In this document: piece by piece, positions 3,299 to 52,900 of the stretch
How the letters are laid out: every line of letters begins with the position of its first letter
Position numbering within the stretch: position 1 is the stretch's first letter
Source: Lichenostomus cassidix
Taxonomy: Eukaryota > Chordata > Aves > Passeriformes > Meliphagidae
Assembly: GCA_008360975.2 (NCBI GenBank)
Contig: CM039182.1
Location: 152,495,858-152,559,857, forward strand
Direction of reading: 5' to 3'
Length of the DNA stretch: 64,000 bases
Translations under genes and position numbers: made by a program
Notes under the pieces: generated by a model
The model's database searches: none
What the model was told of the DNA's origin: nothing
Seen by the model: the letters and a program-made list of their open reading frames with translations, nothing else

Positions 3299-11567
<8,269 letters not shown>

Positions 11568-17833: not shown

Positions 17834-20800
17834 GTGAGGAATGCCGGGAGAGAGGCTGGGAAGGGCTTGGAAAACCTGGGATAATGGGAGGTGGAAAACC
17901 CATGGAAAATCCTGGGATAATGGGAGGTGACCCCATGGGACATCCATGGAAAACCCATGGAAAATCCCAAGATAATCCATGGAAAACCCTGGGATATCAG
18001 GAGGTGCTCCCATGGAAAATCCATGGAAAACTCTGGGATAATGGGAGGTGGAAAACCCTGGAAAAACCCTGGGATAACAGAAGGTGACCCCATGGATAAT
18101 CCATGGAAAAGCCATGGAAAATCCCAGGATAATGGGAGGTGACCCCATGGAAAACCCATGGAAAACCCTGGGATAACAAAAGGTGTTCCCATGGAAAACC
18201 CATGGAAAACTGTGGGATAACGGGAGGAGTTCCCACGGAATGAGGAGGAGCCAGGAAATCTCAACCATCCTCCCAAAGCATTTTGGGATTTCATGGCATT
18301 TTTGTGGCCATGCTGGGGCTTGGAATTCTTCAGATTCCCAGGATTTGGGGTTTTGGAGCCTCCCTGGGAATTCCCACCCATCCCAGAATTCCTGTCCATC
18401 CTGGAACTCCCATCCATCTCCCTGTCAATCCCAAAATTCCTGTCCATCCCACAAATCCCAGAATTCCTGTCATTCCTGCAGGAGAACGGTCCAGGACCTC
18501 CCGACTGTCCGTCCATCCCAGAATTCCTGTCCATCTCCCTGTCCATCCATCCCAGAATTCCCATTCATCCCGGAATTCCCTTGGGTCCATCCTGGAATTC
18601 CCATCCATCCCAAATTCCTGTCCATCCCACAAATCCCAGAATTCCCATCGGTCGTTCCCACAGGAGAACAGTCCAGGACCACCTGACTGTCCTGTCCATC
18701 CTGGGAATTCCTGTCCATCTCCCTGTCCATCCATCCCAAATTCCTGTCCATCCCACAAATCCCAGAATTCCCATTGGTTGTTCCCACAGGAGAACGGTCC
18801 AGGACCACCTGACTGTCCCGTCCATCCCAGAATTCCTGTCCATCCCACAGTCCCCATCCATCCCAGAATTCCCACAAATCCCATTGGTCATTCCCGCAGG
18901 AGAACGGTCCAGGACCGCCTGACTGTCCTGTCCATCTCCCTGTCCATCCCAGAATTCCTGTCCATCCCGGAATTCCCACAAATCCCATTGGTCATTCCCG
19001 CAGGAGAACTGTCCAGGACCGCCTGACCGGCGCTGACATCACTCTGTCGGACGAGCAGCTGGAGTTGGTCCAGAGGCTCCAGAAAGGACAATTCGGCGAC
19101 GTCAACTTCGATCCCTACGAGGTGAGGAGGAGTTTTTCCAGGGAATTCGGGGGATCCCGTGGGGTTCCCGCCGGGAATTCTGTGTCCCAGCTCGGCATTC
19201 CCTGTTTTCCCAGCCGGCCGTGGATTTCTTCAGCCACGAGGTTCGGATCCATCCGGTGACCAACAGGCCGGCGGACAAGCGGAGCTTCATCCCTTCCCTG
19301 GTGGAGAAGGAGAAGGTGGGAATTCCGAGGGGATGGGAGGGTGGGGAGATCCCAGTGGGATTGAGGAGGTGGGAAAATCCCAATGGGATGAGAATGGGAA
19401 AGATCCCAATGGGATGAAGAGAATGGGAAAATCCCAGTGGCTTTAGGAGAATCCCAGTGGCTTTAGGAGACTGGGAAAGATCCCAATGGGATGAGGAGAA
19501 TGGGAAAAATCCCAATGGGATGAAGAGAATGGGAAAATTCCGGTGGGATGAGATTGGAAAGATCCCAATGGGATGAAGAGAATGGGAAAAATCCCAATGG
19601 GATGAAGAGAATGGGAAAAATCCTGATGGGATGAGGTTGGAAAGTTCCCAATGGGATGAGGATAATGGGAAAATCTCAGTGGGTTTAGGAGGTTGGAAAA
19701 ATCCCAGTGGGTTTGAGGAGATGGGAAAGATCCCAGTGGGATGAGGAGAATGGGAAATATCCTGGTGGGATGAGGAGATGGGAAAGATCCCAATGGGTTT
19801 TTGAGGAGATTGGAAAAATCCCAGTGGGTTTGAGGAGGTGGGAAAGCTCCCAGTGGGATGAGGAGGGTGGGAAAATCCCAGTGGGAAGGGGAGGTTGGAA
19901 TGATCCTGGTGGGATGAGGAAGGTGGAAAAGCTGAGGAGGATGAAAAAATCCCAATGGGATGAGGAGATTGGGAAGATCCTGATCGGGATAAAGAGGAGG
20001 GAAAAGCTGAAAAGGATGGAAAAATCCCAGTGAGATGAGGAGATTGGAAAAATCCTGATCAGGATAAGGAGGATGAAAAAGCTGAGGAGATGGAAAGATC
20101 CCAGTGAGATTCCAGTGGAACAGAGAGGATGAAAAAATCCTCCAAGCCCCCAAATCCTGCTTTTCCCAGTTTTCCCACTTTTCCCACTATCTCCCAGGTC
20201 TCCAAGCTGGTCCACGCCGTCAAGATGGGTTTTTCCCATTTTTCCCACTTTTCTCCCAGGTGTCCAAGCTGGTCCATGCCATCAAAATGGGCTGGATCCA
20301 ACCTTGGCTTTCCATCACTTTTCCCACTTTTCCCATTTTTCCCACTTTTCCCACTTTTCCCACATTTCCCATTTTTCCTGTCTCCCAGGTCTCCAAGCTG
20401 GTCCATGCCATCAAGACGGGTTTTTCCCACTTTTCCCACTTTTCCCATTTTTCCTGTCCCCCAGGTGTCCAAGCTGGTCCATGTCATCAAGATGGGTTAG
20501 ATCCAACCTTGGCTTTCCATCACTTTTCCCACTTTTCCCATTTTTCGTGTCTCCCAGGTGTCCAAGCTGGTCCATGCCATCAAGACGGGCTGGATCCAAC
20601 CTTGGCTTTCCATCACTTTTCCCATTTTTCCTGTCCCCAGGTGTCCAAGCTGGTCCACGCCATCAAGATGGGCTGGATCCAGCCCCGCAAGCCCAAGGCC
20701 GACTCGCCCGTGTTCTACGACCTGTGGGCCCGCGAGGATCCCAACTCCATCCTGGGGCGCCACAAGATGCACATCCCTGCCCCCAAGCTGCCCCTGCCCG

Positions 20801-23800
20801 GCCACGCCGAGTCCTACAACCCGCCCCCGGAATTCCTGCTCAGCCCTGAGGAGGTGCGCCGGGAATGCCGGAGGGGAAGGATGGGAATTCCGGGTGGGAA
20901 TGCCCAGCGGAGGGGTTTGGGGCATCTGCTCGGGTCTGGAGGGGTTGGGAGTTGTTCTGCCAGGGAATTTGGGGGATCTGGAGGGGTTTGGAGGAGTTGG
21001 GAGTTGTTCTGCCAGGGAATTTGGGGGATCTGGGTGGGTTTGGAAGTGTTTTTCTGGAGAATTTGGGGAATTCTGCTGGGTCTGGATGGGTTTGGAGTTG
21101 TTTTTCTGGAGAATTTGGGGAATTCCATCGGGTCTGGAGGGGTTTGGAGTTGTTTTGCCAGGGAATTTGGGGGATCTGGGTAGGTTTGGAGTTGTTTTTG
21201 CGGAGAATTTGGGGGATCCTCTTGGATCTGGAGGGATTTGGAGTTGTTTTTCTGGAGAATTTGGGGAATTCCATTGGGTCTGGAGGGGTTTGGAAGGATT
21301 TTCCCCGGGAATTTGGGGGATCTGGATGAGTTTGGAGTTGTTTTTCCAGGGAATTTGGGGTGTTTGACCTCTTTTCTCATCCCCTTTTCCCATTCCCACC
21401 ATTCCCATTATTCCCACCATCCCCATCCCCATTCCCATTCCCCCAATATTCCCGGGATTCCGTCAGGAGTCAGCCTGGGAGCAGCAGGAGCCGGCGGAGC
21501 GCAAGCTGAACTTCGTCCCGCGGAAATTCCCGAGCCTGCGCGCCGTTCCTGCGTATTCCCGCTTCATCCACGAGAGGTTCGAGCGCTGCCTCGACCTCTA
21601 CCTGTGCCCCCGGCAGAGGAAGATGAGGGTAACTCCCAAAAAATGGGGGAAAATGGGAAAAAATGGGGAAAAACGGGAAATGCTGCCTCGACCTCTACCT
21701 GTGCCCCCGGCAGAGGAAGATGAGGGTAACTCCCAAAAAATGGGGAAAATGGGGAAAAATGGGAAAAAATGGGGGAAAAATGGGGAAAAATGGGAAAATA
21801 TTGGGAATTAATGGGGAAAAATGGGGAATAATGGGAAACAATGGGGGAAAATGGGGAAAAATAGGAAAAAACAGGAAAAGAATGGGAAAAAAAGGGAAGA
21901 GAATGGGGGAAAATGGAGAAAAAAGGGAAAAAGGGGGAAAAATGGGAAAAAATGGGGAAAAAATGGGGAAAAAACAGGGAAAAACAGGGAAAAATGGGGA
22001 GAAATGGGAAGAAATGGGAAAAATGGGAAAAAATGGGGAAAACCAGGAAAAATGGGGAAAAATGGGGAAAAGCCAGGAAAAATGGGAAAATCCAGGACAA
22101 AAATGGGAAAAACCAGGAATGTGGGGCTGGGAATTCCTTCTGGAGAAGATCTGAGTTGGGATTTGGTTTCATTTTTCTCCCGCAGGTCAATGTGGATCCC
22201 GAGGATCTCATTCCCAAACTTCCCAAGCCGCGGGATTTGCAGCCTTTCCCGACCACGCAGGCACTGGTGAGGGAATTTTGGGAATTATTTTGGGAATTTT
22301 GGGAATTTTTCCCCCCTCAGGAAGGGTTGGGATTGCTGGAAAATCAGGATTTGTGGCCTCAGGAAGCAGGGTGGGAATTCAGGCTGAGGATTCCCAGGAA
22401 AAACTGGGAGAAGGAGTTGATCCCAGCTGGAATTCCCATGGATCCGGCGGCTCTGAGGGTCTGGGAAATACTCCTGGAAATCCCTGGGGATTGGGAACTG
22501 CTGAGATTTGGGATTTCCCTCCTCATTCTGGTTTTTTCCCAGGTTTACCGAGGTCATTCCAGCCTGGTGAGAACCATCAGCATCTCTCCCAGCGGGCAGT
22601 GGTTGGTGTCAGGTATGGGATTGGGAATTCTGTGGGATAAATTCCATGGATCTGCTGTGGATTGGGAATGGGAATAATGGGAATGGAATGGGAATGGGAA
22701 TGGGAATGGGAAAAGGGAATAGGATGGGATGGGATGGAAATAATGGGAATAATGAAAATGGGAATGGAATAGGGATGGAGATGGGAATGGGAATGTGTGG
22801 GGATTGGGAATAGGGAATGGATGAGAATGGGAATGGAGATGGAGATGGGAATGGAAAAAAGAAATGGGAATATGGATGGGATGGGAATAATGGGAAAAGG
22901 AAATGGGAATGAGAATGGAGATACAGATGGGAATGGGAAAAGATAATGGGATTGGGAATGGGATGGGATGGGATGGGAATGGGAATGATGGGATGGGAAT
23001 GGGATGGATGGGAATGATGGGAATGGGAATGGGATTGGGAACGGGAAAAGGGAATAGGGAATGGGAATAATGAGAATGGAGATGGGAATGGAATGGGAAT
23101 GGGAATGGGAATAATGACAATGGGAAAACAGAATGGAATCGGGAATGGGATGGGATTCCCATTCCCACCATTCCCAATCCCATTCCCACCATTCCCATCC
23201 TCATTCCCACCATTCCCAATCCCATTCCCACCATCCCTCAGGCTCTGACGACGGCACGCTGCGGCTGTGGGAGGTGAGCTCGGCTCGCTGTCTGCGCTGC
23301 ATCCCCCTTGGCTCTGTGGTCACCAGCGTGGCCTGGAACCCAAACCCCAGCGTGTGCCTGCTGGCCGTGGCCGTGTGAGTGTCCCACAGTTCCCAAATTC
23401 CCAAATTTCCCAGAATTCCCAAGCGAGAGTTCCCAAATTCCCCACAATTCCCAAATTCCCAGAATTCCCAAATTTTCCCACAATTCCCAAGCAAGAGTTC
23501 CCAAATTTCCCACAATTCCCAAGCAAGAGTTCCCAAATTTCCTCCCCGGGGTGAGTATTCCCTGGCGGGATTCCCAAATTCTGAGAATTCCCCTGGGAGA
23601 ATTCCCAAATTTCCCACAATTCCCAAATTTCCTCCTCCGTGTGAGTATTCCCTCCCCGGGAGAATTCCCAAATTTCCCAGAATTCCCCTGGAAAAATTCC
23701 CAATTTTCCAAGAATTCCCCTGGCAGAATTCCCAGATTTCCTCCCCTGTGTATTCCCGCTTTCCCCACAATTCCCAGATTCCCCAGAATTCCCAAATTCC

Positions 23801-26800
23801 CCAGAATTCCGAGATTTCCTCCCCATGTGAGTATTCCCACTTTTCCCAGAATTCCCAAATTTCCCAGAATTCCCACATTTCCTCTGCCCAGGGGAATCCT
23901 GGATTCTCTCCCGAAGTTCATTCCATGCCCAGAGCTTGGAGGATCCCAATTCCAGACAAATCCATCTCTGTCCTGATCCCACTTTATTCCCACTTTATTC
24001 CCACTTTATTCCCTCCACATTCCCACTTTATTCCCACTTTATTCCCACCTTATCCCTTCCCAATTCCCTCCATTTTTCCCTCCCAATTCCCTCCTTATTC
24101 CCCCCAATCCCTTCCCAATATTCCCTGTTTATTCCTGCTTTATTCCTCCATTTTCACTCCTAATTCCTTCCTCATTCCCTCCCAGTTCCCTCTTTATCCC
24201 TTCCCAAAAATCCCTGCCTCTATCCCAATCCCGATCCCATTCCCAATCCCATTTTTCCCAATCCCGATCCCACTTTTTGTGATTTCCTGTTCCCAATCCC
24301 ATTTTCCCATCCCAAATCCCATTTTTCCCGTTCCCAATCCTGTTTTCTCTCAGGGATGATCATACTCCTGGGGAGGATTTTTCCCATCCCAATCCCATTT
24401 TTCCCCATCCTGATCACATTTTTTGGGATTTCCCGATCCCGTTTTTTGGGATTTCCCCATTCCCAAATCCCATTTTTCCCGTTCCCAATCCCGTTTTATC
24501 CCAGGGATGATTGCGCTCTCCTGGGCAGGATTTTCCCCAATCCCAACCCCTTTTTTTCCAACCCCAATCCCATTTTTCCCATTCCCAATCCCATTTTTCC
24601 TATTCCCAATCCCATTTTTCGGGATTTCCTGGTCCCAAATCCCATTTTCCCAATTCCAATCCCATTTTTCAGGATTTCCCAATCACAATCCAGTTTTTGG
24701 GATTTCCCTCATCCCAATCCCATTATTTCCCATAGGGATGAGCGCGCGGTGCTGCTGAACCCGGGCCTGGGCGATCGGCTGCTGCTCTAATCCCAATCCC
24801 AAATCCCATTTTTTGGGATTTTCCCCAGGGATGAGCGCGCAGTGCTGCTGAACCCCGGGCTGGGCAATCGGCTGCTGCTCTAATCCCAATCCCAATCCCA
24901 ATCCCATTTTTTGGGGTTTTCCCCAGGGATGAGCGCGCAGTGCTGCTGAACCCCGGGCTGGGCAATCGGCTGCTGCTCTAATCCCAATCCCATTTTCCCA
25001 ATCCCATTTTTTGGGATTTTCCCCAGGGATGAGCGCGCGGTGCTGCTGAACCCCGGGCTGGGCGATCGGCTGCTGCTCTAATCCCAATCCCAATCCCATT
25101 TTTTGGGATTTTCCCCAGGGATGAGCGTGCCCTGCTGCTGAACCCCGGGCTGGGCGATCGGCTGCTGCTCCAATCCCAATCCCAATCCCATTTTTTGGGA
25201 TTTTCCCCAGGGATGAGCGTGCCCTGCTGCTGAACCCCGGGCTGGGCGATCGGCTGCTGCTCTAATCCCAATCCCAATCCCATTTTTTGGGGTTTTCCCA
25301 TAGGGATGAGCGTGCCCTGCTGCTGAACCCCGGGCTGGGCGATCGGCTGCTGCTCTCCAGCACAGATCAGCTGCTGCAGTCCTGGGAAGCTCCGCAGGAG
25401 GAGAGAATCCAACCTGTCCGGTGGATCCCGGCGAGCCCCGAGGAGTTCCAGAGCGGGGTCAGGCTGGTCCTGGAGCACGGCAAGGTGGGGATTCCTGGGA
25501 TTTGGGATTTCTGGGATTGGGATTATTGGGATCCGTCTGGTCCTAGAGCACGGCAAGGTGGGGATTCCCAGGATTCCTGGGATTTGGGATTTCTGGGATT
25601 TCTGGGATCCGGCTGGTCCTGGAGCATGGCAAGGTGGGGATTGAATTCCTGGGATTTGGGATTTCTGGGATTTCTGGGATTGGGATTCTCGGGATTTGGG
25701 GATTTCTGGGATTGGGATTATTGGGATCAGGCTGGTCCTGGAGCACAGCAAGGTGGGGATTGAATTCCCGGGATTCCTGGGATTTGGGGTTTCTGGGATC
25801 GGGAGAGGCTTTGGAGGTCCTGCAGTTACTGAAGGTGACTGCTGGGATCCCAAATCGCATTATTCCCAATCCCATAAATCCCCTAATTCCCATTTTTCCC
25901 ATTTTCCCAGCTGGTGACCCAGGTGACCTTGCATGATAAAGGATCCCATTCCTACTCCCATAATTCCCAATCCCAACATTCCTATTTTTCCTATAATTCC
26001 AGCCGGTGACGCAGGTGACGTGGCATGGCAAGGATCCCAAATCCATTCCCAATCCCATAAATCCCCATAATTCCCATTATCCCAGCCATTAACACAGGTG
26101 ACGTGGCACGGCAAGGGCAACTACTGACATCCCAAATCCATAATTCCCAATCCCATAAATCCCATTTTTCCCGTTATCCCAGGCGGTGACGCAGGTGATG
26201 TGGCACGGCAAGGATCCCAAATCCATTCCCAATCCATTCCCAATCCCATAAATCCCATAAATCCCATTTTCCCCTCGTTCCCAGCCGGTGACGCAGGTGA
26301 CGTGGCACGGCAAGGGCGACTACTGACATCCCAAATCCCGATATTCCCATTTTTCCCATAAATCCCATTATTCCGTCGTTCCCAGGCGGTGACGCAGGTG
26401 ACGTGGCACAGCAAGGATCCCAAATCCATTCCCAATCCATTCCCAATCCCCTAAATCCCATTTTCCCCACATTCCCAGGCGGTGACGCAGGTGACGTGGC
26501 ACGGCAAGGATCCCAAATCCATTCCCAATCCATTCCCAATCCCACAAATCCCAATATTCCCGTTATTCCCATTATCCCAGGCGGTGATGCAGGTGACGTG
26601 GCACGGCAAGGGTGACTGCTGACATTCCCAATCCATTCCCAATCCATTCCCAATCCCATAAATCCCATAAATCCCCTAATTCCCACATTCCCAGGCGGTG
26701 ACGCAGGTGACGTGGCACGGCAAGGGCGACTGCTGACATCCCCAATCCATTCCCAATCCCCTAAATCCCATTATTCCCATTATCCCAGGCGGTGACGCAG

Positions 26801-29800
26801 GTGACGTGGCACTGCAAGGATCCCAAATCCATTCCCAATCCCCTAAATCCCATTATTCCCTCGTTCCCAGGCGGTGACGCAGGTGACGTGGCACGGCAAG
26901 GGCGACTACTGGGCGTCGGTGCAGCGCGGTGCCGGCGGCGCGCAGGTGCTGATCCACCAGAGCAGCCGGCGCTGGAGCCAGAACCCCTTCCGGAAGTGCC
27001 CCGGCATGGTGCAGTGCGTGCAGTTCCACCCCTGCCGCCCCTACCTGCTGGTGGCTTCACAGAGATCCGTCAGGATCTACAACCTGCTGCGCCAGGAGCT
27101 CTGCAAGAAACTCGACTCCAACTGCCAGTGGATCTCCAGCATGGCTGTGCACCCCGGAGGTGAGGAATGTGGGGATTCTGGGGGAATTATGTGGGAATTA
27201 TGTGGGAATTCTGGGGGTGAGGATCCCAAAGGGAATCCCAAAGGGATCTCCAGCATGGCTGTGCATCCTGGAGGTGAGAGTGACGGGAATTCTGGGGGAA
27301 TTATGTGGGAATTCTGTGGGAATTCTGGAGGTGAGGATCCCAAAGGGATCTCCAGCATGGCTGTGCACCCCGGAGGTGAGGAATCTGGGAATTCTGGGGG
27401 AGTTCTGGGGGTGAGAATCCCAAAGGGAATCCCACAGGGATCTCCAGCATGGCCGTGCACCCCGGAGGTGAGAGTTATGGAAATTCTGTGGGAATTATGT
27501 GGGAATTCCAAAGGGAATCTCAAAGGGGATCCCAAAGGGAATCCCGAAGGGATCTCCAGCATGGCTGTGCATCCTGGAGGTGAGAGTTATGGGAATTCCA
27601 TGGGAATGTGGGAATTACAGAGGTGAGGCTCCCACAGGGAATCCCACAGGAATCCCAAAGGAAATCCCAAAGAGAATCTCAAAGGGAATCCCGAAGGGAA
27701 TCTCAAAGGGATCATCTGAGGATATGGGAATTCTGGAGGTGAGGAGAATCCCATGGGGATGTCAAATGGATCCCAAAGGGAATCCCAAAGGGATCATCCA
27801 GGGGATGTAGGAATTCCGGAGGTGACGAGAATCCCATGAGAATCCCAAAGGGAATCCCAAAGGAATTCGAAAGGAAATCCCAAAGGAATCCCAAAGGAAA
27901 TCTAAAGGAAATCCCAAAGGGAATAATTGTCCAAGGATACGGGAATTCCGGAGGTGAGGAGAATCCCATGGGAATCCCCAGTGGATCACCCAGGATGTGG
28001 AATTCCCGGTAATAATTCCCATAATAATTCCCATTTTTCCCAGGGGACAACGTGATCTGCGGGAGCTACGACAGCAAGCTGGCCTGGTTCGACCTGGATT
28101 TGTCCACGCGGCCCTACAAGCTGCTGCGGTGAGTGTGGGATTCCCAAAATTCCCAAAATTCCGGGAATTCTGATCCATTGGGATGGGCTGGTGTTCCGGA
28201 AAATCCTGCTTTGGCCTGGGATTTGTGCGGTGGGAGCCTCGTTATCCCAGATTATCCCAAAATTGTCCTGAATTATCCTGAATTATCCCAAAATTATCCT
28301 GGGCTGTTATCCCAAACCATCCCAGGCTGTTAACCCAAATTATCCCGAATTGTCCTGAATTATCCCAAATTATCCCGGGTTGTTATCCCAGACTATCCCA
28401 GGCTGTTATCTCACATTATCCCAGATTATGCCGTGTTGTTATCCCAAATTATTCCAAAATTATCTCAGGCTGTTATCCCAAACTATCCCAGCCTGTTATC
28501 CCACATTACCCTGGGTTGTTATCCCAAGTTATCCCACATAATCACACTTTTTCCTGGGCATTTATCCCTGTTTTTCCAGGTGTTTATCCCAGTTTTTCCC
28601 GGGCATTTATCCCATTTTTTCCAGGCTGTTATCCCTGTTTTCCCAGCTGTTATCCCGTTCTTTCCTTTGTGTTTATCCTGTTTTTTCCCAGCGTTTATCC
28701 CAGTTTTTCCCGGCTGTTATCCCATTTTTCCCGGGCTGTTATCCCTGTTTTCCCGGTGTTTATCCAGTTTTTTCCCACCTCATTCCCGGTTTTCCAGGCA
28801 CCATCACCGCGTTCTCTGCAGCGTTGCTTTCCCGGGTTGTTATCCCTGTTTTCCCAGCTGTTATCCTGGTTTTTCCCATCTCATTGCTGTTTTTTCCCAC
28901 CTCATTCCCATTTTTCCCCATCTCATTCCCGTTTTTCCTGGACACCATCGCCGCGCTCTCCTCAGTGTCACTTTCCCTGGTTGTTATCCCGTTTTTCCCA
29001 TTTTTTCCCATTTTTTCCCGTTTTTTCCCAGTGTTTACCCCGTTTTTTCCCACAGGCACCATCGCCGTGCTCTCCGCAGCGTCGCTTTCCCAGCTTGTTA
29101 TCCCTTTTTTTCCCATTTTTTCCCATTTTTCCCGGTGTTTATCCCGTTTTTCCCCACAGGCACCATCGCCGCGCTCTCCGCAGTGTCGCTTTCCCGGGTT
29201 GTTATCCCGTTTTTCCCATTTTTTCCCGTTTTTTCCCGTTTTTTCCCGGTGTTTATCCCGTTTTTTCCTGTTTTTTCCCATTTTTTCCCGTTTTTTCCCA
29301 TTTTTTCCCGTTTTTTCCCGTTTTTCCCGGTGTTTATCCCGTTTTCCCCACAGGCACCATCGCCGCGCTCTCCGCAGCGTCGCGTTCCATCGCCGATACC
29401 CGCTGTTCGCCTCGGGATCTGACGACGGAACTGTCATCGTCTGCCACGGCATGGTCTACAAGTATGGGAATTATTTATGGGATTTGTGGCATTATTTATG
29501 GGATTTGTGGGATTTGTGGGATTATTTATGTGATTTGTGGAACTGTGATCGTCTGCCATGGGATGGTCTACAAGTACGGGAATTATTTATGGGATTTGTG
29601 GGATTGTTTGTGAGATTTGTGGGATTGTTTATGGCATTATTTAGGGGATTTGTGGGATTTATGGAACTGTGATTGTCTGCCATGGCATGGTCTACAAGTA
29701 TGGGAATGTCTGTGGGATTGTCTATGGGATATGTGGGATTTGTGGGATTGTTTATGGGATTTGTGGGATTTACAGGATTTATGGGATCCATGGGATTCAT

Positions 29801-30521: not shown

Positions 30522-30549
30522 GGGTTTATTTTGGAATTTTCCGTGTCTT

Positions 30550-31845: not shown

Positions 31846-31931
31846 TCACAGGAGGCGGACGAGGCGCCCCAGAGCTTCGGCGACTTTGATCCTCACGGCG
31901 GGAATCGGATCCTTCAGGAGCAGCTTCAGGG
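31846..31931 (-). CDS. MROH1: MROH1 terminal coding exon
   Basis: Acceptor CTGCCCTTCCAG. Two bases complete Ala, then LKLLLKDPIPAVRIKVAEAL and GRLVRLL and TGA. The human C-terminus is ILLKDPAPEVRTRAAEALGR followed by LVKLA, so this is the full end of the protein. Confidence 0.96.
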
Positions 31932-34900: not shown

Positions 34901-37900
34901 AATATCCCACAGGGAACATATTTCTTAAAAACCCCAAATTTACCCCAAAATTACTCCAAAAATGGTTGAAACTTACTCCGAAAATGGCCAAAAATGACCC
35001 CAAAAATGACCCCAAAAATGGCCAAAAATAACCCAAAATGGCCAAAGTTACCCTAAAACTGGCCCCAAAATGACCCCAAAATGGCCCAAAATGGCTCAAA
35101 ATGACCCCAAAATGACCCAAAATTACCCCAAAATGGCCCAAAATGACCCCAAACTGACCCAAAATGACCCAAAATGGCCCAAAATGACCCCAAACCAACC
35201 AAAACCACCCCGAAGTCCCCTGGGGCCACCAGGAGCAATGTCACCCCCTGGTGGCAGAAGTCCCTGCAGTGTCCCCATGGTGTCCCCAAGGTGTCCCCAA
35301 GGTGTCCCCAAGTCCCTCACTGATGAACATGGAAACCCCAATGTCACTGATGTCACTCCCGGTGACAAAGGCCACCCACAGTGGCCCCATGATGTCCCCA
35401 GGTTGTCCCCAGGTTGTCCCCATGGAGTCCCCATGTCCCTGCAGTGTCCCCATGGTGTCCCCATGGTGTTCCCAAGTCCCTCACTGATGAACATGGAGAC
35501 CCCAGTGTCACTGATGTCACTCCCGGTGACAAAGGCCACCCACAGTGTCCCCATGATGTCCCCATGATGTCCCCAGGTTGTCCCCATGGTGTCCACATGT
35601 CTCTGCAGTGTCTCCAAGATGTCCCCAGCTTGTCCCCAAGGTGTCCCCAAGTCCTTCATTGATTAACATGGAAACCCCAAAGTCAATGATATCCCTCCTG
35701 GTGACAAAGGCCACCCACAGTGTCCCCATGATGCCCCCAGGTTGTCCCCACGGTGTCCCCATGATGTCCCCCAAGGTGTCCCCACTGTGTCCGTCACCGA
35801 TGAACATGGAGATCTCCAATGTCAATGATGTCCCCTGGTGACAAAGGCCACCCCAGGTTGTCCCCAAGGTGTCCCCAGGTCCCTGCAGTGTCCCCACAGT
35901 GTCCCCAAGGTGTCCCCAAGTCCCTCACCGATGAACATGGAGAACCCCAGTGTCACTGATGATGTTCCTGGTGACAAAGGCCACCCCAAGATGTCCCCAA
36001 GGTGTTCCCATGACATCCCCATGGTGACCCCAATGTCCCCACAGTGTCCCTGTGTCCCTGAAGTGTCCCTGCGGTGTCTCCAAGGTGTCTCCATGGTGTC
36101 CCTGCAGTGTCACCATGATGTTCCCATGGTGCCCCCATGATGTCCCCTGGTTGTCCCCAAGGTGTCCCCAAGTCCCTCACCGATGAACATGGAACCCCGA
36201 GGTCAATGATGATGACGTCCCTCCTAGTGAGAAAGGCCACCCCACAGTGTCCCCATGATGTCCCCACAGTGTCCCCAAGGTGTCCTCATGTCCCCACAGT
36301 GTCCCCATGATGTCCCCACAGTGTCCCCAAGGTGTCCTCATGTCCCTGCAGTGTTCCCATGATGTCCCCAAGGTGTCCCCGAGTCCCTCACTGATGAACA
36401 TGGAGACCCCAATGTCACTGATGTCCCTTTGGTGACAAAGGCCACCCCACAGTGTCCCCATGGTGTCCCCATGATGTCCCCAAGGTGTCCCCATGATGTC
36501 CCCAAGCCCCTCACTGATGAACATGGAAACCCCCAATGTCAATGATGTCCCCAAGGTGTCCCCATGGTGTCCCCAAGGTGTCCCCATGATGTCCCCAAGG
36601 TCCCTCACCGATGAACATGGAAACCCCCAATGTCAATGATGTCCCCAAGGTGTCCCCAAGGTGTCCCCAAGGTGTCCCCATGATGTCCCCAAGGTGTCCC
36701 CAAGGTGTCCCCAAGGTCCCTCACCGATGAACATGGAAACCCCCAATGTCCATGATGTCCCCCTGGTGACAAAGGCCACCCCACAGTGTCCCCAAGGTGT
36801 CCCCATGATGTCCCCAAGGTGTCCCCAAGGTCCCTCACCGATGAACATGGAAACCCCCAATGTCAATGATGTCCCCAAGGTGTCCCCAAGGTGTCCCCAT
36901 GATGTCCCCAAGGTGTCCCCAAGGTGTCCCCAAGGTGTCCCCACGGTGTCCCCAAGCTCCTCACCGATGAACATGGCCGCCGCTGCCCGCAGCTCCCGCC
37001 AGGAGCTCTTGAAGTAGAAGAGGTTGGTGGAGATGAGGCGATTGAGCAGCGAGGGGTGGCTGCGCATCTGGGGACAGCGGGGACAGCAGGGGACGTTGGG
37101 GATATTGGGAGATGTTGGGGGATATTGGGGACTTTGGGGATATTGGTGACATTGCAGACAGTGGAGACATTTGGGACAATGGGGATATTGGGGACATTGG
37201 GGACAGTGGAGACATTTGGGACATTGGGGATATTGGGGACATTGGGGATGTTTGGGATGTTGGGGACATTGGGGACACTGGGGACATTGGGGACATTGGG
37301 GATATTGGGGACATTGGGCACATTAGGATGTTGGGGACATTGGGGATATTGGGGATATTGGGAACATTGGGAACATTGGGGACATTGGGGGCATTGGGGG
37401 AACATTGTGGGCACATTGGGGGACATTGAGGATATTGGGGACATTGGGGGACATTGGGGGATGTTGGGGGATATTGGGGGATATTTTTCCATCTCCACAT
37501 TCCCACGTCCCCTGGGTGTCCCAACCCCAATCCCAATCCCACAATCCCAATCCCAATCCCAATCCCAATCCCACAATCCCAATCCCATTACCAGGTATTT
37601 GCAGACATCATTGATAAATTCCCCATAGTGCAATCCCATATCCTCCCGCAGGTGATTCCCAATCCCACAATCCCAATCCCAATCCCACAATCCCAGCCCC
37701 AATCCCATTACCAGGTACTTGCAGACATCGTTGAGGAACTCCCCATAATGCAATCCCATATCCTCCCGCAGGTGATTCCCAAACATTTCCCAATCCCACA
37801 ATCCCAATCCCAATTCCAATCCCACAATCCCTCAATCCCAACCCCAATCCCATTACCAGGTATTTGCAGACGTCATTGATGAACTCCCCATAGTGCAATC

Positions 37901-40900: not shown

Positions 40901-43900
40901 TGGAACTATCCCTGGAAGGATCCCAGGATGGATCCCAGGATGGATCCCAGGATGGATCCCAGGATGGATCCCAGGATGGATCCATGGAATTATCTCTGGA
41001 AGGATCCCAGGATGGATCCCAGGATGGATCCCAGGATGGATCCCAGGATGGATCCCAGGATTCCCATCCCAACATTCCCGTTTTTCCCGCTCACCTCGGC
41101 CAGGAATGCAGTGCTGGTCACCCTCTGGCACTCAAAGACACTTCCCAGCACTGGGATGAGGCTCTGGACAATCCGGGGGATTCTGGGACCGCAGAGCTCG
41201 GCCATCGCCCTGCGGGAATCCCGGAAATTATCCCAAAATCAGCCCGGAAATCAGCCCGGAAATAAACCCTGGAAATCCCAGAAATCCCACTGCCCCGGCA
41301 CTCGAAATCCTGGGAATCCCAGAAATCATCCTGGAAATTATCCCAGAAATTATCCCTGAAATCCTGGAAATCCTAGAAATTCCACTGCCCTGGCACTTGG
41401 AATCCCAGAAATCCCAGAAATCCCATTGCCCCAGCACTCAAAATCCTGGGAATTCCAGAAATCATCCCAGAAATCGTCCTGGAATCATCCTGGAAATCAT
41501 CCCAGAAATCATCACAGAAATTATTCCGGAAATCATCCCGGAAATCATCCCACAAATCCCAGAATGCTGCCTGGCTCCAGTCGGGAATGCCCCAAAATCC
41601 CATCCCACTACTTGGAATTCCCATCCCAATCCCGGAATTCCCATCCCACCCTTTGGAATTCCCACCCCAATCCCACAATTCCCACCCCAATCCCACAATT
41701 CCCACCCCAACCCCACAATTCCCTACCCGGCCAACAGGGCGACTCCGTCATGGTGTCTCTCGGGAATTCCCATCAATTCCCAACCTCCGGAATTTTCCAC
41801 CTTCCTGACGACGTCGTCGTTCCCAGCCCTGACCAGCATGGCCTTCAGCGTCTGCGCCGCGCAGCTGCAACGGGAGCGGGAGGGGTTGGATTGATTTGGG
41901 GTTGGATTTGGGATTGGTTGGATTTGGGATTGGATTTGGGATTGGTTGGATCTGGGGTTGGATTTGGGATTGGTTGGAGTTGGAATTGGATTTGGGATTG
42001 GTTGGAGTCAGGATTGGATTTGGGATTGGATTTGGGATTGGATTTGGGATTGGATCTGAAATTGGATCTAGGATTGATTTGGGATTGATTGGAGTTGGGA
42101 TTGATTGGATTGGGGATTGGATCTGAAATTGGATCTGGGATTGATTTGATTTGGGATTGATTGGATCTGGGATTGATTGGATTCAGGATTGGATTCAGGA
42201 TTGATTGAATTTGGGATTGGATTCAGGATTGACTGGATTCGGTATCAGATTTGGGATTGGAGTTGGGATTGATTGGATTCAGGACTGACTGCATTTGGGA
42301 TTGGATTTGGGATTAGGATTTGGGATTAGGATTTGGGATTAGGATTTGGGATTTATTGGATTCAGGATCAAATTCAGGATTGATTGAATTTGGTATTGGA
42401 TTCAGGATTGATTGGATTTGGGATCAGATCCAGGATTGATTGGATTTGGGATCAAATCCAGGATTGATTGGATTTGGGATCAGATCCAGGACTGATCAAT
42501 TACATTCAGGATCAATTCCATCTCCACCCGGACATCCCCAGGAATTCCTCCTCCTCTCCATCCCACCTCCTCCGGGGAACAAAATCCCAGACAAAACCGG
42601 GAAAGGAAAAAAAATCCCAAAAAACCCTCCGGAGCTACTGGAAGGAATTTATCTTTTTTTTTTTTCCACGGAATGAGCTTTTTATGGGGTTGGGATTTTT
42701 TCTGCCTCGGAGCAACATCTGGAAAACATCTGCAATTCCGTCAAAACACCGGGAAGAGCAGCCAGGGAGGAATCCTGGCCGGCGGGGAGGGCAGGGGAGC
42801 TGATCCCACCCACGGAGGAAATCTGGGATGGGGAATTTGGGATTCCGTCCGAGCTGCCGGGCTGGAATGGCTCCGGGGGGATTGGTGGGAATATTCCCAG
42901 TGGGAATTGTTGGGAATATTCGCATTGGGATTTATCCTGAATATTTGCATTGGGATTCATCCAAATTGGGATTGATCCCAAATATTCCCATTGGGATTTT
43001 TCCCTAATATTCTCATCGGGATTTATCCTGAATATTCCCATTTGGATTTATCCTGGATATTTGCATTGGGATTCATCCAAACTGGGATTTATCCTGAATA
43101 TTCCCACTGGGATTTTTCCTGAATATTTCCATTGGGATTTATCCTGGATATTCACATTGGGATTGATCCAAATTGGGATTTATCCCAAATATTCCCATTG
43201 GGGTTTGTCCTGAATATTCTCATTGGGATTTTTCCCCAATATTCCCAGTGAAATTTATCCCAAATATTTCCATTACATTTTATCCCAAATATTCCTGTTG
43301 GGATTCATCCTGAACATTCCCACTGGGATTTATCCTGACCATTCCCATTAAGATTTGTCCCAAATATTCCCCCTGGGATTTATCCCAAACATTCCCACTG
43401 GGATTTATCTCAAATATTCTCATTGGGATTTATCCCAAATATTCCCACTGGGATTTATCCCAAATATTCCCACTGGGCCAAGGGAAAAGCAGGATGAGGA
43501 ATGGGAATGGAAAAATTCTGTGGAAAACCTGGAAAACTTGGAGCATCCCAGGAGCCTCTGGGGATTCCCAGGATTAATTAGGGATTAATTAAAGGCTGCT
43601 GATGGGAAATCCTGGGAAATCCTGGGAAATCCCGGAATGGTTTGGGCTGGAAGGGATTCTGGGATGATCCCATTCCCAACAATTCCCACAATCCCAGGGT
43701 TCTCTGCCCTGCCTGGGACAATTCCAGGTTTCCTGGGAATCCAATCCCTGCTGCTCCTTTTTTTGGGAATCTCCTGCTCCGGAGGCTCCATCCCAGCGCT
43801 GCTTCCCAAATTCCCAACTCCCCAGTCCCAGCCCTTGGTGTCCATCCCATCCCATTAGCCCATGGATCCCATAAATCCCAAAAATCCCATAAATCCCAAA

Positions 43901-46900
43901 AATCCCATAAATCACATAAATCCTTTCTCATCCCATCCCATCCCATCCCATCCCATAAATTCCATATTCTCATAAATCCCAAAAATCTCATAAAGCCCAT
44001 CAATCCCATCCCATAAATCCCATCCCATGCTATGAATCCTATAAATCCCATAAATCCCATCCCGCTCCATCCCATAATTCCCATCAATCCCATCATCCCA
44101 CCCTCTTTATTCCCCCCATCCTGATTCCCCCTTTTCCCTTTCCTTTTCCCTCTTCTCTTTCCTTTTCCTTTTCCTTTTCCTTTTCCTTTTCCTTTTCCTT
44201 TTCCTTTTCCTTTTCCTTTTCCTTTTCCTTTTCCTTTTCCTCCTTTTCCTTTTCCTTTTCCTTCCTTTCCCCTCCTTTCCTTTCCTTCCCCTTTTCCCCT
44301 TTTTTCCCTTTTTCCCTTTTTTCCCTTTTTCCCTTTTCTGTTTTTCCCTTTTCCCCTTTTCCCCCTTTTTCCCCTTTTCCCCTTTCACCCTTTTCTCCTT
44401 TCTTTTTTCTTTTCCCTTTTCCCCTTTTTCCCCTTTTTCCTTTTTCCCCTTTTCTCCCTTTTTCCCTTTTCCCATTTTTTTCCCTTTCCCCATTTTCCCC
44501 ATTTCCCCCATTTTTCCCCATTTTCCCCCATTTTCCCCTTTTTCCCCTTTTCCCCATTTTTCCCCCTTTTTCCCCTTTTCCTTTTTTCCCTTTTTTTTCC
44601 CCTTTTCCCCTTTTTCCCCTTTTTCCCATTTTTTTCCCCATTTTTCCCCTTTTCCTTTTTTCCCTTTTTTCCCCCCTTTTTCCCCTTTTCTCCCCCTTTT
44701 CCCCTCCAGGTCACCTGCAGGGCTGGAGGTTCCTCCTCTCCCTGGTTCCCAGCAGGAATTTGGGGATCTGGACGCCCACGGAGCATCCCAGGCGGATCAG
44801 CAGCGCCTGGAAAAGCTTCGGGAATTTCTCCAAAACCGCAGCCGCAGCCTCCGGCACAGACATGAGCTCATCCAGCGCGCACGTGGCCTGCGGAGGCAGC
44901 GGGAAAACGGGAATCTCCCGGGAAAAACACTCGGAAAAGGAGTTTTCCGCCCGGCCAGGCGGCCCCAGCTTAACCCCTGATGGAGCTGAATGGGATTTGG
45001 CTTTTTCCCGAATTTTTCCCTGATTTCCTAGGAATTTTTCCCTGATTTACAAGGTTTTCCAGACCCTAAAATCTGAATTTTGGGGTGCAAATTAATCCCG
45101 AATTTTCCCTAGAAATTACTTCCTGATTCCCCAGGAACTAATCCCAGATTCCCTACGAATTATTCTCTCATTCCCAAGGATTTCCAGACCCTAAAACCCA
45201 AACTGTGGGGTGGAAAACTTGGGAATCCCCCGGGAAAAACACTCGGAAAAGGAGTTTTCCGCCCGGCCAGGCGGCCTGAGGTTAACCCCTGATGGAAATG
45301 ACTGGGATTTGGTTTTTTCCCTGATTTTCTAGGAATTTTTCCCTGATTTCCGAGTTTTTCCAGACCCTAAAATCCGAATTTTCGGGGTGGGAATTGTTCC
45401 CTGATTCCCTAGGAATTATTCCCAAATTCCCAAGGTTTTCCAGACCCTAAACCCAAAGTGTGGGGTGGAAATTATTCCCTGATTCTCCAGGAATTATTCC
45501 CTGATGCCCAAGTTTTTCCAGACCCTAAAATCCGAATTGTGGGGTGGAATTAATCCCTAATTTTCCCTAGGAATTATTCCCTCATTCCCAAGGTTTTCCA
45601 GACCCTAAAATCCCAAAGTTTTTGGAGTTTTGGGGGTGGGAATTATTCCCTGATTTTCCCTAGAAATTATTTCCTGGTTCCCTCGGAATTTTTCCCTGAT
45701 TTCTGAGGTTTTCCAGACCCTAAAATCTGAATTGAGGGGTGAGAATCATTCCCTGATTCCCCGGGAATTATTCCCACATTTTTTGGGAATGATTCCCTCA
45801 TTCCCAAGGATTTCCAGACCCTAAACCCAAAGTGTGGGGTGGGAATCAATCCCAGATGTGATTCCCAAAGCTGGAATTTCCTGGGATAATTCAGGAATGT
45901 TTAGGGTGGGAATGAATCCCAGTCAGTGCTGAGGAGGAGGAAAAGGGAATTGGGATTTTTCCAGCTTTTTTCCAGTTGAAAATCTCCCAAGGCAGTTTGG
46001 GATTTTTTTATTTTCTTTTTTTGGGATTTGGATTGGCTGAAATGCAAATATTCCTTGGGAATGGAGAGCTGGAAATCCCAAAAATCCCAGAAATCCCATC
46101 CTTTGGATCTTATCCCATAAATCCCAGAAATCCCATAAAACCCCTAAATCCCACGAATCCCATCCCAACCCATCCCAAAATTCCCAAAATTCCATGAGGA
46201 TTCTCCAGGATTTCCCCCCTTTTCCTGGATCCCAATGAACCTTCAAACTCTGGGAATTCCTTGGGAACTTTTTAGGAATTTAATGGGATTTTTTTAGAAA
46301 TTCCTTGGGAATGCCATGGGAATTTTTAAGGAATTTTTTGGGATTTTTTGGGAATTCCTTGGGAACTTTTCAGGAATTTTGGAGATTTTTTTGGTGAATT
46401 CCTTGGGAATTTTTGGGGGAATTTTTTTGGGAATTCTTTGGGAATTTCTTGGGAATTTCTTGGGAATTTTTTGGGGAATCATTTGGGAATTCCTCAGGAA
46501 TTTTTGGGGGAATTTTGGGCTATTTTCTTGGGAATTTTTTGGGGAATCTTTCGGGAATTTTTTTGGGAATTATTTTGGGAAATTCCCTGGGAATTTTTCC
46601 GTGGATTTTTGGGAATTTTTCCCAGGAATACTCACAGCCAGGCTGAGCGGTGTGGCAGTTCTCTCAGCAGCACTGCCCAGCAGGAAGGTTTTGCTCTCCC
46701 GGAAGGGAATTTCTCGACTTAACTTCTCCAGGAGATTCTCCAGGATTTGGGAAGTCAGAGAAGCTTCTGAGCCCAGAGATCTCCACATGGTGCGGGTGTG
46801 GCTGGGGGGGGAAAAAACGGGAATTTTGGGGGAAAAAATGGGAATTTTGGGGGAAAAAAAAAGGGAATTTTGGAGGAAAAAGTGGGAATAATGGGGAAAA

Positions 46901-49900
46901 AAAGAGATTTTTGGGGGAAAAAATAGGAATTTTTGGAAAAAATTGGGAACTTTGGGGGAAAAAAGTCAGGAACTTTGGGAATTCTTTTCCAGAAGATTCT
47001 CCAGGATTTGGGAAGTCAGAGAAGCTTCAGAGCTCAGAGATTGCCACATGGTGTGGGTGTGGCTGGGGGGGGAAAAACCAGGAATTTTGGAATTCTGGGG
47101 GGAAAAGGGAATTTTGGGGAAAAAAGGGAATTTTGGGTATTCTGGGGGAAAAAATGGGATTTTGGGGATTCTGGGGAAAAAAATAAGAATTTTGAGAAAA
47201 AACAGGAATTTCAGGAATTCCAGGAAAAGGGAAAAAAATCAGGAATTTTGGGAATTCTGGGAAAGAAAAAAAAGGGAATTTTGGTAATTCTGGGAAAAGG
47301 GAAAAAAGGGAAATTCGGGAATAACAGCTGCATCCAGAGCAAAATTCCCAATTTTCTGGTGGGAAACAGCTGGAGAACTCCCTAAAGATCAACTCTCAAT
47401 AGGAAATCCACATCTCTGGGAAAAGTGGTTTCTCCCACAGTGAAATTCCCAATTTTTTCATTAGAAAAATCCCTAAAAATCAACTCCTGAGAGAAATCAG
47501 AGCTCTGGGGAAAACCAGCTTCTCCCAAAGCAAAATTCCCAATTTTCTGCTTGGAAAAATCCCCAAAAATCAACTCTCAATAGGAAATCCACATCTCCAG
47601 GAGAAACAACTTCTCCCACAGCGAAATTCCCAATTTTCCACCCCAACAACCCCAAAAATTCCCTGAAATCCTCCCAAATCCAGGGATTTACACTTCCCAA
47701 CCTGTCGAAGGGCAGGGAGTTCCCCAGCAGGGAGGAAACCACAATTTCGGGATGCTGCAGAGCCAGGAGCAGAACTGATTGCTGAAGGGATTTCCGGAGG
47801 TTTTCCGAATCCAACAATTCCAGCTTGGAGTGGATGACGCCCAGCAGGTCGGGAATCTGCGGGAAAAAATTGGGATTTTGGGAGTTTTTTTGGGATTTTG
47901 GGATTGAGGGAAGGAATTCTGGGGGGTTTGGGATTTGCTGGTTGGGAGATTCCTGGGAAAAAAGGGAACTGTGGGATGGTTGGAGTTGGAAAATCCCTGA
48001 GAGATCATTTGGATCTCAATCCTATCCCATGATTCCCATTATTCCCATTTCATTCCCATTATTCCCATTATTCCCATTCTCAGTCCTATAATTTCCATTA
48101 TTCCCATCATTCTTATTATTCCCATTATTCCCATTCCCATCATTCCCATTCCCATTTCATTCCCATTATTCTTATTATTCCCATTCCCATTCCATGATTC
48201 CCATTATTCCCATTTCATTCCCATCATTCCCATTTCATTCCCACTCCATGCAGAACATTCCCAAAAAATCCTCCCTAAACCCTATGAATTTTTCTGGGAT
48301 TTTTTCTGGAATTCCACCTTTTCCTGCCAGGATTCCATCCCAAAATTCCCTTCCCATCCCACCCCAAAATTCCCCTTTTAAAGCTCCAAATTTTGTGAAT
48401 TTCCCCATGAATTTTTCCGGGAATTTCTCACTGAATTTCTCCAGGATTTTTTCCGGGATTTTTTTGGGAATTCCACCTTTTCCTGCAGGAATTCCACCCC
48501 AAAATTCCCATCCCATCCCATGCCAAAATTCCCAAAATTCTCCTTTTAAACCCCAAACTCTGGGAGTTTTTCCAGGAATTTCTCCGGGATTTTTTCCGGG
48601 ATTTTTTCCTGGATTTTTTCTGGGACTTTTCCTGGGATTTTTTTGGGAATCCCACCTTTTCCTGCAGGATTCCCCCTCTCTCCCTCAGCAGGGAATTCAG
48701 GATCACGGCTGCAGCTCGGGAACAATTCCCATCCGGATCCTCCAGTCCTTCGAAGAGGGAGAAGAGGAAATTCGGGATTTGCTCCGGAGGAATTCGCTTC
48801 CCGATCACCTGGGGGTGGAAAAAAACAGGAAAAATGGGAATAAAAAATGGGAATAAAAATTGGGAAAAATCCTGGGATTGGGAATGGGATTGGGGATGAG
48901 AATGATGGGAAGAATAGGAATAATGGGAATTATGGGGAATAATGGGAATGGTGGGAATGGGACTATGGAAATAATGGGAATAATGGGAATGGAATGGGAA
49001 TAATAGGAATAATGGGAATTATGGGGAATGATGGGAATGATAGAAATGATGGGAATTAATAATGGGAATATTGGGAATGAGGGGAATGATGGGAATGATG
49101 GGAAAATGGGAATGGGAATAATGGGAATTATTGGAATTATGGCAATTATGGGAATTATGGGAATGGAATGGGAAGAATGGGAATAATGGGAATGATGGGA
49201 CTGATGGGAATGATGGGAATATGGGAATAAAGTGAATAATGGAAATGAGGATGGAATGGGAAAAATGGGAATTAATACTGGGAATAATGGAAATAATGCA
49301 ATGGGAATAATGGGAATAGAATGGGAATGTTGGCAATCATGGGAATGGAATGGGAATGGGAATAATAGAAATAATGGGAATAATGGGAATAATGGGACTG
49401 GAATGGGAATGGACATTCCCAGAGGGATTGAATATTCCCACATGGCTTGGACATTCCAGGATCCCTGGGAATGTGGGATGAGGTTGGGAATTGCCTTGGG
49501 AAGATCCAGGAATGGCTGGGATTGGAGCTGAGCTTTCCCAGCCTTGGGAATTCCAGACATTCCCAGATGGAATTCTGGTGATTCCCATTCAGAATTCCAG
49601 CCATTCCCAATTCTGGTCATTCCCAGATGGAATTCCAGCCATTCCCAATTATAATTCCCACCATTCCCAATTCCAGCCATTCCCAATTGGAATTCCAGGA
49701 TTCCCAGCTCTCTCTCACCGAGGCCATCCTGGTGCAGGTGTGGAAAAGGACGGAGAAATCTGGATTTTCCAGCTTTTCCTTGAGTGATTCCAACTCTTCC
49801 AGCAGCTCATCCCGGTGATCCCGGGAAAAACCTGGAATGGGGAGAGAATTCCTGGGATTTGACGCCGAAAATTTGGGGTTTTCCCAGTTTTTGGGGTGAA

Positions 49901-52900
49901 TTCCTGAGGATGAAACCTTGGAAATCCCAGAATAGTTTGGTAAAGAAGAAAATCTTGGAATTCCAGGCTTGGAAAAACTCTTGGAAGTCAACAATTCCAT
50001 CGTGATCCCAGAAAAAAATGGGAATTTGGGCAATTTTCCTGATTTTTTGGGGTGAATTCCTGAGGATGCAGCCTTGGATATCCTGGAATAGTTTGGGAAA
50101 GAAGAAAATCCTGGAATTTTGGGCTTGGAAAAACCCTTGGAGGTCACTGAGTCCATCCAGGCCACAGAATTCCAGATTTTTGGGAATTTCCCAGAAATTT
50201 TTGGGAAGGAAAGAGAAGAATCCAAGTGGAAAATCGGGAAAAATATCCCAAAATCCTGGAAAAAATGGGGAACTCCAAAAATCTGGAATTGGGGTGGAGA
50301 TTGAACCCCAAAAACTCCTGGAATTCCATGGAATTCGGAAATTCCCGAATTGCGAAGGGCAGCAGCGACCTCTTGTGGAGAGTCGGAGAATTGCCGGAAA
50401 ATATTCCTAAATCCCAAAAAACCCGAAAAAAACCAGAAAAAACCCGAAAAAGAACCCGAAAAAACCTGAAAGAAAACCTGAAAAAAACCTGAAAAAACCC
50501 CGAAATAGAACTGAAAAAAACCCTGAAAAAAAACCCTGAAAAAACCTGACAGAAAACCTGAAAAAAAAACCTGAAAAGAAAATGAAAAAAACTCTGAAAA
50601 AACCCAAAAAAACAGCCAAAAAAAAGCCTTTAAAAAACCCCAAAAAATCTGAAGAAAGCAAAAAAAAAAAAAAAATCCGAATGAAATGGAGGTGTGAGGC
50701 TGGGGTTGGAAAAGGGAATTTTCCCATTTTCCGGTGGGAAAAATCTGGAAAAAGTTCCCAAAAATTCAGAAAAATTCTCCAAAAATTCCCCAAAATTTCC
50801 CAAACGCCCCAAATTTCCCCAAGACCCAAAATTCCCAAAAATTCCCCCGAAAATTCCCAAAAAATCCCCCAAAAATTCCCAAAAATTCTCCCCGAAAAAT
50901 CCCCAAAATTCCAAAAAAAAATTCCCAAAAATTCTCAAAAAATTCCCCTAAAATTCCTCAGAATCAAAAAAAATTCACCAAAAAAATCCCCAAAAACTTC
51001 CCAAAAAATCCCCAAAATTCTCAAAAACTCCCAAAAAATTCCCCAAAAATTCCCAAAATTTCCCCAAAAAATCCCCAAAATTCCCCAAAACTCCCACCTT
51101 GGTAGCAGAGCTGGATGTAGAGCAGGGAGCAAACGCAATCCAAAATTCCCAAAAATTCCCAAAAAAATTCCCCCAAAATTCCCAAAAAATCCCAAAAATT
51201 TCCCCAAAAATCCCCAAAAAAATTCCCAAAAAATCCCTGAAATCCCCAAAACTCCCACCTTGGTAGCAGAGCTGCATGTAGAGCATGAAGCAAACGCAAT
51301 CCACAATTCCCAAAAATTCCAAAAAATTCCCAAAAAATTCCCAAAAAATAAAAAAAATTCCCCAAAATTCCCCCAAAAAATTCCCAAAAAATTCCCAAAA
51401 TTCCCCAAAATTCCCTAAATCCCACCTTGGTAGCCGAGCTGGATGTAGAGCAGGGAGTGAATGCAATCCACAATTCCCAAAAATTCCCAAAAAATCTGCC
51501 AAAATTCCCAAAAAATTCCCAAAAAATCCCCCAAAAATTCCCAAAAAATCCCCAAAATTCCCAAAAAATTCCCAAAAATTCCCAAATCCCACCTTGGTAT
51601 CCGAGCTGGATGTAGAGCAGGCAGCGAACGCACTCGACGGCGTCTCTGCGGATTTCGGGAATTCCGTCGGAGCAGCGAGGGGAGAGCAGAGCCAGCAGCA
51701 GGCTGAGCGTGTGGAACGGAGTCACGCTCTGGGAAAATTGGGAATTTTGGGATTGGTGGGATTGGTGGGAATGGAGGCTGAGCGTGTGGAACGGAGTCAC
51801 GCTCTGGGAAAGGGGGAAATTGGGAATTTTGGGAATTTTGGGAATGGTGGGATTGGTGGGAATGAAGGCTGAGTGTGTGGAACGGAGTGACGCTCTGGGA
51901 AATGGGGGAAATTGGGAATTTTGGGAATGGGAATGGTGGGAATGAAGGGAATGATGGGATTGGGAATGATGGGAATATTGGGAATAACAGGAATATCGGG
52001 AATAATGGGAATAGGAAAAATTCCAGGTTTGGGGATTGAGATGGGAATGGGAATGAGAATAGGAATGGGAATAATGGGAAAAATTAAAAAATATGGAAAT
52101 AATGGGGATGGGAATAATGGGAATGGAATGGGAATAATGGGAATAATGGGATGGAATGGGAAGGGAATTAGGAATGAGAATAATGAGAATAATGGGAAAA
52201 ATGGGAATAATGGGAAAAATGGGAATAATGGGAATGATGGGAAAAATGGGAAAAATATGGGAAAAATGGGAAAAATGGGAATGATGGGAATAATGGGAAT
52301 GATGGGAATGGGAATGGAGGTGGGAATTATGGGAATGGGAATTATAGGAATGATGGGAATAATGGAATAATAGGAATAGTGGGAAGAATGGGAATGGGAA
52401 TGCAAATCAAACAGGAATGGGAATGGGAATAAATGGGAATAATGGGAATAATGGGAATAATGGGAATAATAGGAATGGGATGGGAGTAAGGGGAATGGGG
52501 ATGGGAATGAGAACGAAGTGGGAATAATGGGAATAATGGAATTGGGATGGGATGGGAATAATGGGAATGGGGATAATGGGAATAATGGGAATAATGGGAA
52601 TAATGGGAATAATGGGAATAATGGGAATAATGGGAATGGGATTGGAATGGGAATGGAATGGGAATGGGAATTGGGAATGGTACGGGAATGGGAATAATGG
52701 GAATGGAATTGGGAATGGATCCAATGGGAACAGGAGCAGCTCAGCCTCATTCCCGAGGCTCGGAATTTTGGGAATTCTCAGCCACTCACGCTGACTTGGA
52801 GCTTCTCCAGGTAGAACTGCAGCAGGGATTTGCTGACTGCCATCGCCCTCTGCCTCTCCTGCTCCCGCGGGGATTTGATCCAGGGCCCTAAATGCTGGGA

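Follow-up and report, generated by a model that had tools for sequence, protein, structure and literature searches.

Exon edges of two convergent genes, BOP1 and MROH1, are repeated together with their splice sites within the neighbouring introns of a 64,000-nucleotide stretch of contig CM039182.1 (the window, numbered here from its first nucleotide). The pattern is real and confirmed in both genes, and it is one already named and described in chicken as exon stuttering, of which this locus is a dense two-gene example. We regard it as very probable that exon stuttering at this locus is a by-catch of minisatellite growth throughout the introns, constrained by selection on the exons. BOP1 lies on the plus strand (17679-30349) and MROH1 tail to tail with it on the minus strand (31846-53771, with its stop at 31846). 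The window is repetitive throughout, with 70% of it under Tandem Repeats Finder (TRF) arrays (59% to 84% per 4-kb block). The 185 non-overlapping arrays have a median period of 31 (quartiles 14 and 77, 90th percentile 146), in keeping with the head-to-tail imperfect units of about 10-100 bp that define minisatellites. The GC content is not extreme (0.35-0.61 per 2 kb), a point of difference from the chicken form.

The exons, designated a to m in BOP1 and M1 to M16 in MROH1, provide 56 edges (29 acceptors and 27 donors); the 3' ends of the terminal exons, m and M16, are not splice sites and were left out. Up to 60 exonic nt of each edge were compared with the intron on its own side, the intron on the opposite side, distal introns and, for each edge, 30 dinucleotide-shuffled versions. 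The own-side intron gives a score of at least 40 at 13 of the 56 edges, the shuffle maximum over all edges being 32; 17 edges score higher than all of their own shuffles, and 17 higher than any distal intron tried. An earlier note on this DNA had reported at least a dozen exon ends of the two genes reiterated in their neighbouring introns, an observation that is confirmed. The opposite side, in contrast, is at noise level, with a single edge beating its shuffles (25 versus 24, about 1.8 edges being expected by chance) and a single edge scoring higher there than in distal introns.

Copies that span the border were sought with queries of up to 80 exonic and 40 intronic nt, at E up to 1e-3 and with at least 12 exonic nt, which recovers 60 copies at 15 of the 56 edges. 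Among these 15 are 7 of the 29 acceptors and 8 of the 27 donors; BOP1 contributes 9 of its 25 edges and MROH1 6 of its 31. The clearest array is that of the acceptor of BOP1 exon i, in which six extra head-to-tail copies (24711..25263, plus strand, as for all BOP1 arrays) of a unit of 53 exonic and about 40 intronic nt run into the exon. Further acceptor copies in BOP1 belong to exons b (four copies, 18447..18944), d (five, 20162..20598), j (ten, 25877..26819) and l (four, 28742..29194, the AG being lost in one), and donor copies to exons e (one, 21682..21763, with 44 exonic nt identical), i (three, 25528..25804), j (four, 27244..27616) and l (two, 29539..29719). On the minus strand, MROH1 has copies of the acceptor edges of M3 (two, 51775..51939) and M7 (one, 46984..47090, with 79 exonic nt) and of the donor edges of M3 (three, 51054..51471), M5 (two, 48286..48498, with 18-21 exonic nt), M14 (two, 37554..37791, with 69-80 exonic nt) and M15 (11, 35281..36850, with 12 exonic nt each and the GT lost in one). 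At exons i, j, l and M3 the acceptor and the donor edge are both copied, in each case into the intron on that edge's side. At low-copy edges, homology runs reach into other arrays.

In both of these convergent genes the copies are local, span the border with the splice site included and are placed on the intron side, as the earlier note described. Its range of 12-65 nt for the copied coding length is slightly too short, the exonic part extending from 12 to 80 nt, with a maximum of 80 also when whole exons serve as queries. Its statement that copies never cross the exon agrees with the noise-level result for the opposite side, apart from a weak match of 23 nt, downstream of exon M7, to part of that exon's interior (46191-46213, minus strand), the sole candidate copy across an exon. 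The span it gave began at 17834, beside the donor of BOP1 exon a (17833); that edge has no passing copy, scoring 27 against a shuffle maximum of 26.

The term exon stuttering comes from work on the dot chromosomes of chicken (Hron et al. 2026, Genome Biol Evol evag038, February, PMC12954441), where it designates the form of "sequence stuttering" in which a lateral exon part and its splice site are copied through the adjacent intron. The process for which the earlier note knew no name thus has a published one. In the available parts of that paper it is reported from 115 chicken genes and 236 introns, 190 of these on dot chromosomes; more than 90% of the sources lie within one base of the border, copies never cross into exons, and other birds and gerbils are mentioned besides chicken. 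The exonic part measures 20-187 bp in chicken (median 36 bp) versus 12-80 nt here. Neither BOP1 nor MROH1 appears in the main text, and a narrow search for the terms "sequence stuttering" and "exon stuttering" turned up no other paper with either. A screen modelled on that study, using its bit threshold of 42.1 on our hand-placed exons and dropping rows shorter than 20 nt, yields 48 matches of at least 20 nt, 37 of which reach the threshold (25 upstream and 12 downstream, all on the same strand). The source starts within 1 nt of the border in 32 of these 37. None of the 37 is distal, the four distal matches among the 48 all being below threshold, and 20 shuffles give no match. Repetition at this locus is thus direct, above shuffles and proximal, has its source at the border with the splice site included, and occurs in repeat-covered introns with intact exons. 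It resembles the chicken form, as far as the available text describes it, in its imperfect tandems, its border sources, its failure to cross into the exon and its tandem-repeat-covered introns.

The position of the repetition relative to the borders was profiled with 40-nt windows at set distances from every edge, a copy being sought within 1.5 kb and accepted at a score of at least 36, where 400 mononucleotide-shuffle trials peaked at 31. A local copy is found for 0.81 of 500 random intronic windows. On the intron side of the edges the rate is about 0.9 at 250-400 nt, 0.78 at 60-120 nt and 0.48 just outside the exon, and it drops to 0.27 for windows straddling the border and 0.23 for the first 40 exonic nt. 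Inside exons it is 0.19 at 20-60 nt (31 windows) and 0.07 at 40-80 nt (14 windows), and one of 30 exon-interior windows, in exon M7, has a local copy. Acceptor and donor curves are similar. TRF coverage has a median of 0.84 per inter-exon interval in BOP1 and 0.72 in MROH1, compared with 0.18 and 0.057 of exon bases. A further 300 windows in 1.6-14 kb gave a rate of 0.78; this region was considered as an intergenic control and rejected, as it holds the putative SCX gene (minus strand, see below) and is no true intergenic control.

Borders are thus poorer in repeats than any intron position tested, and the arrays fade out there and do not start there. Local copies are most frequent deep in introns and become rarer towards and inside exons, so borders are not preferred as seeds, and the earlier note's idea of arrays made specifically from exon-intron borders, for which border windows should be enriched relative to intronic ones, is not supported by the profile. 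A toy simulation of random tandem duplications, in which only exon-altering events are rejected, puts edge repetition at 0.80 to 1.06 times the intron level, compared with about a quarter in the data; the observed ratio of edge to intron falls between runs accepting 10% and 30% of straddling events. The simulation remains below the absolute intron level, and its edge/intron ratio alone is used, as a guide only.

As a by-catch of intron-wide minisatellite growth, exon stuttering would begin with short tandem duplications arising all over non-coding DNA, probably through slippage during replication, unequal exchange or the repair of forks that have stalled or broken, and these would turn introns into imperfect minisatellites. 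Some of the duplicated units would straddle an exon-intron border. A tandem copy of an intron tail with the exon head, or of an exon tail with the intron head, would leave the original exon and its splice site untouched and add a decoy edge on the intron side, and could thereby survive; duplications confined to an exon, or taking in all of one, would alter the protein and would presumably be removed by selection. The decoys would be multiplied by later rounds of duplication, the exon edge itself becoming the end unit of the array, fixed by selection, and correct splicing would probably be maintained through exon definition. The ubiquitous arrays, the border-spanning units, the own-side placement and the deficit of repeats at borders are all directly observed in the window. 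The exon appears to be the source of the copies, a view supported by exons such as d, i and j, whose copied edges encode protein conserved with human BOP1.

The own-side polarity would follow from the same geometry. A border-straddling duplication keeps the original edge beside the exon and places the new one in the intron, whichever strand is considered, so that geometry and selection together would suffice and two opposite-strand genes need no orientation-aware process. The earlier note had concluded, from two unrelated genes on opposite strands, that the process follows transcript orientation or splice-site composition; a straddling duplication that spares the exon would produce the polarity unaided. 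The candidate mechanisms listed in that note (replication slippage, R-loop-linked repair and unequal exchange) are not distinguishable from one sequence. For this window, the tempting reading is corrected on two counts: array membership is low at borders, not high, and no transcription-linked mechanism is needed to account for the direction in which edges are copied. As the exon end of an array would be held fixed by selection, the order of tandem duplication may also be readable from a single sequence.

Alternatively, borders could seed the arrays actively, a transcription- or splicing-linked process such as R-loop-linked repair repeatedly copying the edge outward and displacing older copies. 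Its evidence lies in the order of the copies. At all nine edges with at least three copies, BLAST identity to the exon falls with distance, a trend that after realignment is retained at seven, flat at one and opposite at one (the M3 donor, +1.0); the nearest copy is more exon-like than the farthest at 12 of 13 edges. Controls, in contrast, are trendless, 77 of 150 random intronic units being negative, as are 33 of 60 units (23 of 39 clusters) taken from array ends distant from exons. The copies are also at least as exon-like as they are mutually alike in five of the nine arrays, in one of them by 0.001, whereas in the other four (the b and d acceptors and the M3 and M15 donors) they are more like each other, which is the mark of one seeding followed by internal growth. 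The gradient favours some repeated duplication of the border, or local homogenisation near the exon, and the difference between edges and controls is not predicted by plain by-catch. This counts against our interpretation, as do two points of comparison with the published form: matches occupy 11 of 27 inter-exon intervals here versus 190 of 5,572 annotated chicken dot introns (3.4%; PMC12954441), a loose comparison in that the chicken annotation was automatic and later hand-filtered; and bird origin, dot-chromosome location and intron-length variation are traits of exon stuttering as published, set here beside a single sequence. Active seeding nonetheless seems decidedly improbable, given that borders are the poorest in local repeats among non-interior positions, that even the unbiased duplication of the toy simulation would yield 3-4 times more edge repetition than is seen, that four of nine arrays bear the mark of internal growth and that the M3 donor opposes the trend. 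A related reading, in which the selection-held exon serves as a permanent template that re-seeds the intron with border copies ageing outward, the decoys being retained and the arrays recording duplications and perhaps influencing splicing, is unlikely, if somewhat less so.

The decoy splice sites could, in principle, be kept for a role in alternative or regulated splicing, and the AG or GT dinucleotide is indeed kept in 58 of the 60 copies. Mismatches amount to 2 of 120 at the splice dinucleotide, whereas exon positions 0-2 differ in 14 of 180 cases, exon positions 3-11 in 30 of 540 and intron positions 3-8 in 62 of 360. A precedent exists in human IFI6, in which downstream repeat units are described as serving as donors (PMC4526556). 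The copies, however, are not independent, and counted per edge position the changes number 2 of 30 at the splice dinucleotide versus 24 of 180 at exon positions 0-11, with no clear difference, and 78 of 270 at intron positions 3-20, a weak contrast. Significance of the retention (P 0.00004 to 0.034) was rejected on the same ground, as it presumes independent copies where arrays share ancestry. No copy carries both edges of an exon, the longest comprising 80 of 135 nt, and a functional role for the decoys is very improbable. It can be said that the decoy splice sites are not eroded; neither their retention nor the distance gradient is conclusive. Minisatellite-rich introns are hard to assemble, and arrays over-expanded by misassembly might give a similar picture. 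Local technical variation is acknowledged in the chicken study (PMC12954441), and in the same study chicken PHF8 shows the same structure in raw nanopore reads. In the window, the exons join into an intact frame and the copies diverge from each other and from the exon by roughly 3-30% mismatch and gap, the differences private to individual copies in nine aligned arrays arguing against simple mis-assembly, so that an artefact is hardly credible.

Other systems share parts of this structure. Avian GC-rich genes (Beauclair et al. 2019, PMC6792250) are similar in having introns built of tandem motifs; they differ in the stress laid on GC-rich, G-quadruplex-prone motifs, and exon-edge copies are not described in the available passages of that work. 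The minisatellite of human IFI6 (G1P3, 6-16; Turri et al. 1995) lies at a border and its units carry donor sites, but it is reported as a single locus with one edge, the units of which act as alternative donors. Intron gain in a potato RdRp gene (Ma et al. 2016, PMC4974935) involves a duplicated unit that crosses the intron-exon boundary with the 3' splice site, in that case as one duplication giving a new intron without an array, as far as the available passages describe it. The present locus contributes a dense example, spread over two genes, of a form of genome instability that was described in print in February 2026. Its intact decoy splice sites, which lie by the dozen next to coding exons, would offer a natural test of splice-site choice by the splicing machinery.

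The placement of exons rests on translated frames. Those of BOP1 match human BOP1 (chain 8fkp_SS) piece by piece, and the 13 exons placed, a (17679-17833), b (19004-19121), c (19214-19315), d (20641-20853), e (21467-21628), f (22186-22266), g (22543-22612), h (23242-23374), i (25304-25484), j (26871-27159), k (28044-28128), l (29354-29461) and m (30196-30349, with the stop), all on the plus strand, join at consensus splice sites into a single open frame of 616 codons and a stop. No BOP1 exon was found upstream of exon a. MROH1 is identified by Maestro-type HEAT models matching several translated pieces, three of five matches being above Pfam's own cut-off with PF21047 and one further with PF23210. 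Its 16 exons, on the minus strand, are M1 (53676-53771), M2 (52790-52894), M3 (51593-51728), M4 (49719-49831), M5 (48656-48808), M6 (47702-47856), M7 (46636-46801), M8 (44715-44887), M9 (41801-41864), M10 (41095-41209), M11 (40202-40348), M12 (39125-39313), M13 (38219-38371), M14 (37857-37991), M15 (36965-37067) and M16 (31846-31931, with the stop), the acceptors of M4, M9 and M16 being the least certain. This set is incomplete, others having surely been missed, and some of its introns are intervals that may hold more exons. MROH1 continues within 54000-64000 on the minus strand, with a HEAT_Maestro_2 match near 62.7-62.8 kb and one below cut-off at 55.3-55.5 kb.

To the left of BOP1, an exon at about 11137-11690 on the minus strand encodes a bHLH domain, for which Pfam gives HLH, and is probably that of scleraxis (SCX). 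Human SCX is located inside a BOP1 intron, so the left 14 kb of the window may be BOP1 intron. HSF1 would presumably be the neighbour past the 5' end of BOP1; no Pfam match to it is found in 1-15 kb in six frames.

A repeat core is common to many unrelated arrays, the motifs TGGGAA/TTCCCA, ATTCCC and ATCCCA being about 29-33 times over-represented in 1-64000 relative to base composition. Sequence similar to this core occurs at many acceptors (TTTCCCAG, TCCCGCAG) and at some donors (GTGGGAAT, GTATGGGA). Within each intron a single array orientation seems to prevail, and neighbouring introns contrast strongly in the strand that carries the core: on the plus strand, TTCCC and GGGAA number 83 and 1 between BOP1 exons h and i, 0 and 35 between e and f, and 1 and 81 between MROH1 exons M3 and M2.

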